Positions 59,177-61,866 of a DNA stretch of 64,000 bases are shown here, one piece after another. The position numbers were made by a program, and so were the translations under genes. The notes beneath the pieces were generated by a model. That model made no database searches, was not told the DNA's origin, and saw only the letters and a program-made list of their open reading frames with translations. Source of the DNA: Trichocoleus sp. FACHB-46 (lineage in GTDB: Bacteria; Cyanobacteriota; Cyanobacteriia; FACHB-46); the NCBI RefSeq assembly GCF_014695385.1, contig NZ_JACJOD010000013.1, positions 248,001 through 312,000 of the forward strand, in the 5' to 3' direction. How positions within the stretch are numbered: the first letter of the stretch is position 1; each line of letters opens with the position of its first letter.

Positions 59177-59686
59177 TTACGAACCCTTAGCCTCTCGAAA
59201 CATCATTAAAAGGTCAAGGGATACGGGCTCAGCAACACCGAGGATGGTGAGAATGGCATGAGCTTGACCACGATGGTGAGTCTGGTGATTAAAGAAGTGA
59301 GAGAGAATTTCGCCCAGAGGTTGACGGTGAGCTGCTCCGTCGAGCGTGTGATAGCTCAACTCTTGATTAAGCTCTGCTTCAGTTAATCCTTCAATAAATT
59401 GCAGAATGCGATCGTCTTCGGCTTCTCTGGCGGCTTGGAGGGAAGGTAAGTCTTCAAAGGCGATCGCGTTCAACTTATCAGGATGCTCTCCAGTTCCAGT
59501 GATCCGCCGCATCCAAATGCGATCGGCTGTAAGGATGTGGTTTAGTGTTCCTTGTAAGCTACCAAAATACGCCCCTACGTTTTTACGATAGGCTTCATTG
59601 GGCAATTCACGAGCCATTTTGTAGAGTCTGGCATTCGCCCAAGCGTTATATTTTGCGATCGTGACAAAATGCGATTTCAGGTTCAT
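59177..59686 (-). CDS. DinB-family metalloprotein
   Basis: A 169-residue four-helix-bundle protein of the DinB/YfiT family. The metal-binding histidines are visible: one in GTLNHILTADRIW and two in FFNHQTHHRGQ. Members are often bacillithiol or other thiol transferases, but in cyanobacteria the substrate is unknown. It begins 8 bases downstream of the stop of the amber-split gene and may share its transcript. Confidence 0.92.
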   Translation of the reverse strand: MNLKSHFVTIAKYNAWANARLYKMARELPNEAYRKNVGAYFGSLQGTLNHILTADRIWMRRITGTGEHPDKLNAIAFEDLPSLQAAREAEDDRILQFIEGLTEAELNQELSYHTLDGAAHRQPLGEILSHFFNHQTHHRGQAHAILTILGVAEPVSLDLLMMFREAKGS

Positions 59687-59694
59687 GGCTCTAT

Positions 59695-60483
59695 CTACTC
59701 AAAGAACCATTTGTAGACTGTGACTTCCTGTCCAGGCTGATTATTTACCGTTATGACTACCAAGGTTTTTCCCTCTTCATTTTTAAAGTGAAAGCGACAG
59801 AGACCTAATCCTGTGCCAGAACATGAAGTTACTTCTTGATAACCTTTTTCAGAGAATAGATACTTAACAGAAGAATTCTCTAAATCCGGAAACAAACCCA
59901 TGCTGGCAGGAATTTGTGCCTACCAGCCTTGATTGAGTAAAAGTTGTCTTGCCTCTTCATATGGCATCATTTGTTTCAAGCTGATTGACACGGAACCTTG
60001 CTTAGAAGAACTTTGAGATTGGCTACTTGATTCATCACTAGTTGCTCTTTGGAGATAAATTGTAAAAGTTTCGTTTGGATCAACCTGTAGATTTAAAATT
60101 TGTCTTTTCAGTTGAAAGCCATCCTTACTTAAAATCACTTCAATATCTTTTCTCCTTGGAACTTCAATATTGACATATCCATTGCTGTCCGTATATCTAG
60201 ATATTGGGGCACCATTAAAGATAAATCGAACTTCTACTTGTTCAATAGGCTGATTGTCAGTTGTATAAATATTAAAACCCACCTCCATCATCTCATTTGG
60301 CTTAGTTTGGGATTGAGTATTTTCAGTTGTAGAGCCTTGAGGAAAAATCTTCTGCACCAAGCCTGGGAAAAACTGTGGAAAGCCTATTGCTGTTATGAGA
60401 GCTGCTACTCCAGTTAATACAGCAGTAGTAATGGCTGCCCATCCATCAAGCTTTGACTTTTTATCTTCTTTTCCATCTGGCAT
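59695..60483 (-). pseudogene. Membrane-anchored gene split by an in-frame amber codon
   Basis: Two ORFs are joined by a single TAG at 59920-59922 in one continuous frame. The first (187 residues, ATG 60483) has a membrane helix (AAITTAVLTGVAALITAIGFP) and an Ig-like/carboxypeptidase-regulatory domain (about 70-150), then YEEARQLLLNQGW before the stop. The frame continues AQIPASMGLFPDL and a Cys-containing domain with TSCSGTGLGLCRFHF. A one-base change (CAG to TAG) would restore a 262-residue protein. I recall the YEEARxLLxxxGW plus CSGTGxGxCRFxF pair as one domain in other cyanobacterial proteins. Recent inactivation is likeliest. Confidence 0.8.
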
Positions 60484-60724
60484 ATATGACTTAAACCTTA
60501 GTGATCAAGGAGGTATGAAGGAAAATCGAAATTCAACTGCATAAAGACTACAAGCTCAATCGATTCTATGGCATCTAATTTCCTAGCTACAATCATCTAT
60601 TGCAGCTTCAGATAAGTAAGCGTTTCAAATAATCTGTCGCAGGTGAGCTGACCCAGAGAGGCGTTTTGGGTTGATATAGTAGCAAAGCGATCGCAAACCC
60701 TAACCCTTATTGGCATTCTCGACC

Positions 60725-60937
60725 ATGTCCCCGGTGGATTTTTCACAGCAGACCATTTCTGTCACCTTAGATGCAGCACTGGTGCAACAGGTAGACCAAC
60801 TAACCAGCGATCGCGATCGCGCCATTGCTGAAGGTTTGCGTTGGTGGTGCGAAAAACAATCAGCTCAACAACGACTAGCGTTTGCCCAAGCTCGGCACGA
60901 ACGCCACGAACGCGACGAGACAGGTTGGTTAGTGTAA
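60725..60937 (+). CDS. Ribbon-helix-helix protein
   Basis: A 70-residue DNA-binding protein from ATG 60725 (the TTG at 60710 adds five residues). It resembles CopG/antitoxin RHH proteins: QTISVTLDAALVQQVDQL forms the ribbon and first helix, SDRDRAIAEGLRWWC the second helix. The tail is rich in Arg/His/Glu. No toxin gene follows; the next gene, 5 bases on, is an ABC transporter ATPase, so this may be a local regulator of the exporter operon. Confidence 0.78.
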   Translation: MSPVDFSQQTISVTLDAALVQQVDQLTSDRDRAIAEGLRWWCEKQSAQQRLAFAQARHERHERDETGWLV

Positions 60938-60942
60938 GCCAC

Positions 60943-61866
60943 ATGATTGCACTCGAAGCCTACAACCTGAGCAAAACCTATCGCGATCGCGGCAAACAAA
61001 TTCAAGCCGTGCGCGATGTTTCCTTAACCATCAAACCCGGAGAAGTTCTCGCGTTTTTAGGGCCAAACGGAGCAGGCAAAACAACCACGATCAAGATGAT
61101 TGCGGGCTTGATTCGGCCTGACTCTGGCTTTGTCAAAATTGCTGGCAGTGACCCCCACCGCGACCCCTGCGCCTTAAAGCTGCTGGGTGCAGTTTTGGAA
61201 GGCAATCGTAATGTCTACTGGCGGCTCAGCCCAGAAGAAAATCTGGAATACTTTGGCATGTTGCGGGGGCTGGATCAACGTCAGGCGAAACGGTATGGGC
61301 GATCGCTGCTAGAACGCTTTGGCTTGATGGATAAACGTCGGAGTCCAGTGCAAGCGCTGTCACGAGGAATGCAACAGAAACTAGCGATCGCCGTAGCTCT
61401 GGTGCATCAACCGCAACTTTTACTGTTAGATGAACCCACCCTGGGCCTTGATGTAGAAGCTACCGAGAACGTCAAAGCTTTGGTACGCGAAATTGCTGAA
61501 GAAGGACGGGCGATTTTGCTCACCACCCACCAACTCGACATTGCCGAACAGCTTTCCGATCGCGTGGCGATTATTCAAGCAGGTGAAATTATTGCTGAGG
61601 AACCTACCCGTGAGTTAATTCGGCAATTCTCTGGGTCTGCTTACACCATTGAACTCGAAAGCCCATTGGATGCCAAGCAGAGTCAGGCGATCGCGGCCTT
61701 GGGTGCAGTCGTTGAAACTGAACAAACCGTATATGTTCAGGGTGCTGAAACGTTGTATCAGGTGTTTGCTATTTTGCAGCCCTTGCCGATTCTGCGGGTG
61801 AAGAAAGACCAAGCTGATTTGACAGGCATCTTTTTGAAACTGGTGCGGGAGGGGCGAGATGCTTAA
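60943..61866 (+). CDS. ABC exporter ATP-binding protein
   Basis: ATPase of an ABC-2 type exporter (DrrA/CcmA-like), 307 residues from ATG 60943. Walker A GPNGAGKTTT, Q-loop region, signature variant LSRGMQQKLAIAVALVHQP and Walker B LLLLDEPTLGLDVEATE are complete, with the switch His in TTHQLD. The C-terminal 80 residues follow the usual DrrA extension. It overlaps the permease gene by 8 bases and lies 5 bases after the RHH gene. Substrate unknown (drug, lipid or polysaccharide). Confidence 0.92.
   Translation: MIALEAYNLSKTYRDRGKQIQAVRDVSLTIKPGEVLAFLGPNGAGKTTTIKMIAGLIRPDSGFVKIAGSDPHRDPCALKLLGAVLEGNRNVYWRLSPEENLEYFGMLRGLDQRQAKRYGRSLLERFGLMDKRRSPVQALSRGMQQKLAIAVALVHQPQLLLLDEPTLGLDVEATENVKALVREIAEEGRAILLTTHQLDIAEQLSDRVAIIQAGEIIAEEPTRELIRQFSGSAYTIELESPLDAKQSQAIAALGAVVETEQTVYVQGAETLYQVFAILQPLPILRVKKDQADLTGIFLKLVREGRDA

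Follow-up and report, generated by a model that had tools for sequence, protein, structure and literature searches.

The gene on the minus strand at 59695-60483 of the window (the whole stretch of 64,000 nucleotides that was analysed, G000:C13:248001-312000, from a genome of 6.56 Mb in 92 contigs) is open except for a single in-frame TAG. The question raised by this locus is whether that codon has disabled the gene, has left a shorter protein that still works, is an error in the sequence, or is read through. The analysis described below suggests that this is probably an accessory gene that entered a variable slot by horizontal transfer and that a single nonsense mutation has recently put out of action. 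The coordinates of the gene, its domains, its neighbours and a related tRNA array are given in Table 1.

Table 1. Positions of the features discussed in the text (window coordinates unless a locus name is given).
Feature	Position	Strand	Remarks
Interrupted gene, 262 codons and terminal TAG	59695..60483	-	Open except for one internal TAG
First open frame, 187 aa	59920..60483	-	Membrane anchor, beta-sandwich domain and first helix of the GW domain
In-frame TAG	59920..59922	-	Immediately 3' of the conserved GW
Downstream open frame from ATG, 68 aa	59695..59901	-	Shine-Dalgarno-like sequence not seen before it (by eye)
Hydrophobic stretch, presumed single transmembrane anchor, aa 14-45	60349..60444	-	By eye; L057 and L058 start alike
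Carboxypeptidase-regulatory-like beta-sandwich, aa 74-144	60052..60264	-	PF13620 E 1.9e-05, 25.3 bits; cut-off 32.3
GW domain, aa 164-262, containing the TAG	59698..59994	-	Sequence comparison and model, pLDDT 87.0, pTM 0.80
Variable slot	59694..60628	.	Unmatched at the corresponding place of two same-genus genomes
Repeat at slot border	60629..60697	.	Two more copies, one partial, in the G001 slot
DinB-family gene, conserved left neighbour	59177..59686	-
Short frame before the ABC transporter ATPase	60710-60937		Conserved right neighbour
ABC transporter ATPase, conserved right neighbour	60943..61866	+	Start codon chosen by eye
Array of 30 named tRNA genes	L105:2781-5670 (G000 contig C35)		10.2-kb contig; ParA-like and HNH-like frames by eye
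tRNA-like gene in a longer conserved hairpin	L105:3327-3478		Anticodon CUA, CUU, UGA or GAU by copy

Reading frame and domain architecture

Read on the minus strand from 60483 to 59695, the sequence gives an ATG, 187 codons, a TAG (59922-59920), 74 open codons and a second TAG (59697-59695), and the first TAG is the sole interruption of the 262-codon frame from 60483 to 59698. The preliminary description, which gave no strand, had called the frame continuous on either side of the amber codon at 59920-59922, and the reading of 187 + 74 open codons confirms this. The 74 open codons past the TAG are weak evidence in themselves (p ~0.03 from base composition alone). The strong evidence for continuity is that the frame past the stop, as judged by sequence comparison, encodes the remainder of a domain that is kept whole and in a single frame in relatives. 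In both parts of the gene, the gene's own frame is the one of the three that the codon use fits best. The GC content is 37.4% in the part before the stop and 39.2% in the part after it, compared to 53.5% in the nearby dxr gene; across the window, it ranges from 45.2 to 52.0% in 2-kb steps.

As shown in Table 1, a presumed anchor and two further domains were identified in the 262-codon frame, which agrees with the earlier proposal that read-through would give a membrane-anchored two-domain protein. The first of these domains resembles the carboxypeptidase regulatory-like domain PF13620, but its score lies under the curated cut-off, and the match is a likeness only and not membership in the family. 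Relatives of this beta-sandwich were found at L026, L028, L035, L036, L041, L046, L048 and L050. The second domain, of about 95 residues, is called the GW domain here. Pfam and NCBIfam searched with the window protein gave no match for it (residues 164-262), and Pfam searched with 12 GW-domain members gave weak PASTA and UBA matches in three of them and nothing more. NCBIfam had no match to any part of the protein. The interrupted gene marks a domain that occurs in cyanobacteria and proteobacteria.

The TAG is located within this second domain and not at the boundary between the two. In the model of the GW domain, which was built from 37 sequences, one helix lies ahead of the stop; the other two helices and each of the four long strands come after it. 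According to this model, a GW domain cut at the TAG should not fold. The five top-ranked structural matches of the domain belong to the BLIP / OsmE / BamE (SmpA-OmlA) fold group, with Z values of 5.7 to 4.8, which are in the tool's middling range, and with rmsd values of 2.4 to 2.6 over 59-64 residues at 5-8% identity. Foldseek gave no match to the GW domain at E <= 0.001, where the best match (E 0.48) was to another fold, and a sequence search of the PDB with the domain gave nothing at E <= 1. A BLIP/BamE-like fold is accordingly suggested for the modelled domain as a lead only. The domain carries two nearly invariant cysteines and is probably a binding module.

Relatives of the GW domain and the age of the lesion

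Relatives were found in 13 of 59 genomes, the own one counted, and matches to some part of the protein in at least 105 of 388 genomes, where at most six candidates were scored per genome and the counts are lower bounds. No match came from a first scan of genome contigs with the whole protein, nor from a tblastn search in which the protein was compared to the plasmid collection. The comparisons below use two collections that overlap. The first is a named-locus collection of cyanobacteria and proteobacteria, in which 80 of 85 loci were kept and for which one of the two search patterns contained GWQ. The second is a set of 51 sequences, from which L053, L055 and L056 (domain E-value > 1e-8) and the duplicate L004 were dropped, and in which L057 and L058 are counted twice.

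The GW domain lies in one continuous frame in 49 of the 51 relatives, the exceptions being L054, with a TGA inside, and L031, which is broken near its end; it is also continuous in all 18 further loci. At the column of the stop, the 51 relatives have Gln in 28 cases, Ile in five, Arg, Glu and Lys in three each, and then others. The column after the stop has Ala in 14 of them, and 12 of these 14 have Gln (by eye). In the larger collection, Gln occupies the stop column in 46 of the 80 loci, where one search pattern itself had Gln. The codon had been expected to correspond to Gln in relatives, and Gln is indeed the commonest residue there. As indicated by these counts, in particular 28 of 51 and 12 of the 14 rows with Ala next, Gln is the likeliest candidate for the former residue at the TAG, and other residues are possible. 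In a further alignment of 11 relatives, which was drawn from GWQA rows, the Gln is there by selection. The motif GWQAQIP, which had been proposed on restoring Gln, stands as far as GWQA; GWQAQIP verbatim was unseen in the 51 relatives, some of which have GWQAIDIP (L027) or GWQAIEIP (L063, L067) at this place.

A stop in the same column was found in none of the 51 relatives and in none of the 80 loci. Likewise, in a test for stops (not frameshifts) that covered each match up to its last six residues, none of the 80 loci has one anywhere inside the GW domain. Among the at least 126 listed rows, which cover various parts of the protein, three have internal stops, namely the window's own and two others.

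The two parts as separate genes with their own starts, which would have contradicted the preliminary description, were found in none of the relatives examined. L055 (G220) and L056 (G138) seemingly consist of two genes each; they are single-frameshift relics, with one frameshift each, and in the other 18 loci examined from that family the frame runs through without a break. Programmed frameshifting, which these two loci had brought into consideration, was rejected because of those 18 continuous loci. Loss recurs in the GW-domain family, as indicated by the lesions in L031 (near its end), L053 (two frames), L054, L055 and L056. In L054 (G277), the TGA stands exactly at the first conserved Cys, and this locus is probably a relic.

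The partners of the domain vary among the relatives. Signal- or lipoprotein-like starts are recognizable by eye, the beta-sandwich occurs with other tails, and L057 and L058 have two GW domains after a similar anchor. The combination of anchor, beta-sandwich and GW domain has no clear case in the 61 loci compared (two of which overlap), so that the three-part protein was nowhere seen intact among them, and none of the relatives is a close ortholog.

Of the columns that reach 80% conservation among the 51 relatives, the interrupted gene has kept all eight before the stop and all 12 after it. The preliminary description had regarded both halves as conserved and the event as recent, and the conserved columns of both halves bear this out. 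Since neither side has lost any of its strongly conserved residues, the lesion looks young on sequence grounds. With zero changes seen, the neutral drift of the part after the stop would amount to at most ~0.105 substitutions per site (95%), a rough bound that presumes the conserved columns to have been intact when the stop arose. The four-fold-site divergence of the neighbouring genes is 0.466 (DinB, G002), 0.421 (ABC, G001) and 0.385 (ABC, G002).

The genomic slot and readings of the stop

In the two same-genus genomes, G001 and G002, the DinB-family gene and the right neighbours are 1.4 and 2.4 kb apart, with 84-88% DNA identity to the genes flanking the slot here. In G002, the slot is occupied by a frame of 359 aa whose NucS match falls under the cut-off, and the G001 slot holds aspartyl-protease-like, BrnT-type and 206-aa frames, among smaller ones. 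Neither of these genomes has the GW domain, of which the genome of the window has one copy. The region is a slot for changing accessory genes, and we infer that the interrupted gene was gained horizontally. The repeat at the slot border (60629-60697) contains GTTGATATAGTARCAAAG, and G001 (L024:1408-2903) has up to three copies in or beside its slot. This repeat is perhaps a promoter that is copied with each cassette.

The course of events that we consider probable is as follows. The gene would have been gained in the slot between the DinB-family gene and the ABC-transporter operon. When intact, it would have encoded a protein that crosses the membrane once and exposes the beta-sandwich and a C-terminal alpha/beta domain on the outer side. 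One nonsense mutation would then have caused translation to end after the first helix of the last domain, and the product would now be at most a 187-residue protein with a last domain unable to fold. The gene resembles a nonsense pseudogene in that its frame is stopped early within a conserved domain and in that homologs with this domain whole exist.

The counterpoint is that the first 187 codons still encode the anchor and the whole beta-sandwich. The stop may have left a functional product, shortened to the anchored beta-sandwich by loss of the last domain, that selection has maintained. In favour of this is L041, a relative with a frame of 146 aa that comprises little beyond anchor and beta-sandwich, and the joining of the beta-sandwich to different tails in other relatives also speaks for this reading. 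However, the short product would end in ~20 residues of the start of a domain that cannot fold, and there has been little time for selection of a short form because the downstream half has not decayed. We regard this reading as unlikely, although it comes first after the disabled accessory gene, followed by an error in the sequence and then by conditional read-through.

An error of sequencing or assembly would mean that the organism itself has no stop at this codon. The lesion is a single-codon event in a 92-contig draft, and both halves are fully conserved. On the other hand, the site has no homopolymer, and the genome is 99.98% complete and 0.3% contaminated, with the gene on a contig of 589 kb, although these values describe the general quality and not the base itself. 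Weighing these points, we consider an error quite improbable.

Stop usage, a tRNA array and known systems

The remaining readings concern decoding of the TAG. RF1 is present in the genome (519.5 bits against a cut-off of 423.25), and TAG ends 99 of 275 genes (>= 200 aa) in a 452-kb stretch of it, compared to 79 of 229 genes in 400 kb of G001. Reassignment of UAG and general amber suppression were rejected, since TAG is an ordinary stop at this share and RF1 is present. A back-up stop within three codons follows 18 of the 99 TAG ends and 24 of 139 TAA ends, and no sign of adaptation to UAG decoding was seen in this genome. A scan for stops against G001 gave twelve in-frame stops in G000 alignments (5 TAA, 2 TGA and 5 TAG), several of them at alignment edges.

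At least 73 tRNA matches were obtained in the genome, where 150 of 344 candidates were scored; anticodons were assigned by ARAGORN, and by eye for the five tRNAs for which ARAGORN named none. C58 and C32 carry two more matches, which resemble tRNAs but contain inserts. Among the matches scored, one gene has a CUA anticodon (L105:3362-3433), and this tRNA-like gene with its flawed acceptor stem is the candidate for a tRNA decoding UAG. The array that contains it has relatives on plasmids of Nostoc, Tolypothrix, Calothrix and Kovacikia. In 14 arrays, from the 15 best plasmid hits, the equivalent slot has CUA in three (L132, L140, L141), CUU in seven and no named gene in four, one of which (L131) holds a degenerate copy of the element. 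The flanks of the element are conserved and fold into a longer hairpin. Its solo copies have the anticodon UGA (G002, L126) or GAU (C58, L108, by eye).

The genome also has a TROVE/Ro60-like gene with a 536-aa frame (L145 and L109, G000 C32:153748-155027), just upstream of which lies a tRNA-like stretch with an insert that is perhaps its Y-RNA neighbour. The presence of this gene brought up a Y RNA as a possible identity of the CUA element. However, what the array element shares with the stretch beside the TROVE/Ro60-like gene is confined to the T arm and, loosely, the 3' flank, and in Rfam tRNA was the sole family that the two solo copies matched over its cut-off.

The CUA gene could matter for the interrupted gene if the TAG were read through under translational stress, possibly by this array-borne tRNA, so that the full protein would be made conditionally. 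The gene folds as a cloverleaf within an array of 30 tRNAs, on a contig with a ParA-like frame, and CUA recurs in the plasmid arrays as described above. In Anabaena, according to the portions of PMC10272220 available to us, the tRNA array is silent until translational stress induces it, and lacZ variants with UAA, UAG or UGA gain activity when the repressor TrcR is lost. Those portions describe the same effect for frameshift and start-codon variants; it is thus neither amber-specific nor, as far as they go, shown to stem from the array. The words suppressor, amber and CUA are absent from PMC10272220. Moreover, the element has an A-A mismatch in the acceptor stem and is embedded in a longer hairpin, and its anticodon varies between copies. 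The use of TAG also speaks against read-through, as the share of TAG-ended genes is similar in G001, where a 435-base piece with the element has no match, and TAG-ended genes have no closer back-up stops. Programmed read-through would be expected to leave a conserved stop, and none of the 51 relatives and 80 loci conserves one at this codon. We therefore hold conditional read-through to be very improbable.

We give still less credence to the broader idea that the CUA gene is a natural amber suppressor, active only under stress, which switches genes like this one from short to full-length products. If such a suppressor reading were true, in-frame TAGs in accessory genes of such cyanobacteria would be conditional and not dead; and should the array-borne CUA gene in fact decode UAG, it would act as a suppressor of natural origin that is gated by stress, for which the interrupted gene would offer a ready reporter. 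Separate translation of the two frames as two proteins can practically be dismissed, because it would split one compact domain of the model and no relative examined has the halves as separate intact genes, and because the ATG 18 bases past the stop, its one favourable point, has no Shine-Dalgarno-like sequence by eye.

The locus thus looks like an ordinary extra gene that was recently lost, and the only unusual circumstance is the tRNA-like gene with a CUA anticodon elsewhere in the genome. For annotation, the two frames should be treated as one interrupted gene and not as two hypothetical proteins; as a broken accessory gene, it has little wider import.

Two known systems can be compared. The array on C35 is of the same general kind as the plasmid trn operon of Anabaena, which has 26 tRNAs according to the portions of PMC10272220 available to us; it differs in having 30 named tRNAs, one of them with CUA, where Anabaena PCC 7120 is known here from the literature alone. 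Among the literature matches listed, a scope that leaves aside the principal account of the Anabaena array (NAR 2021), a CUA gene in cyanobacterial tRNA arrays is not reported, and no novelty is claimed. The interrupted gene itself is comparable to nonsense-disrupted pseudogenes in accessory regions. Here likewise, a conserved domain is cut by one premature stop, the domain is whole in relatives elsewhere, the gene is missing from same-genus genomes, and nothing essential differs.
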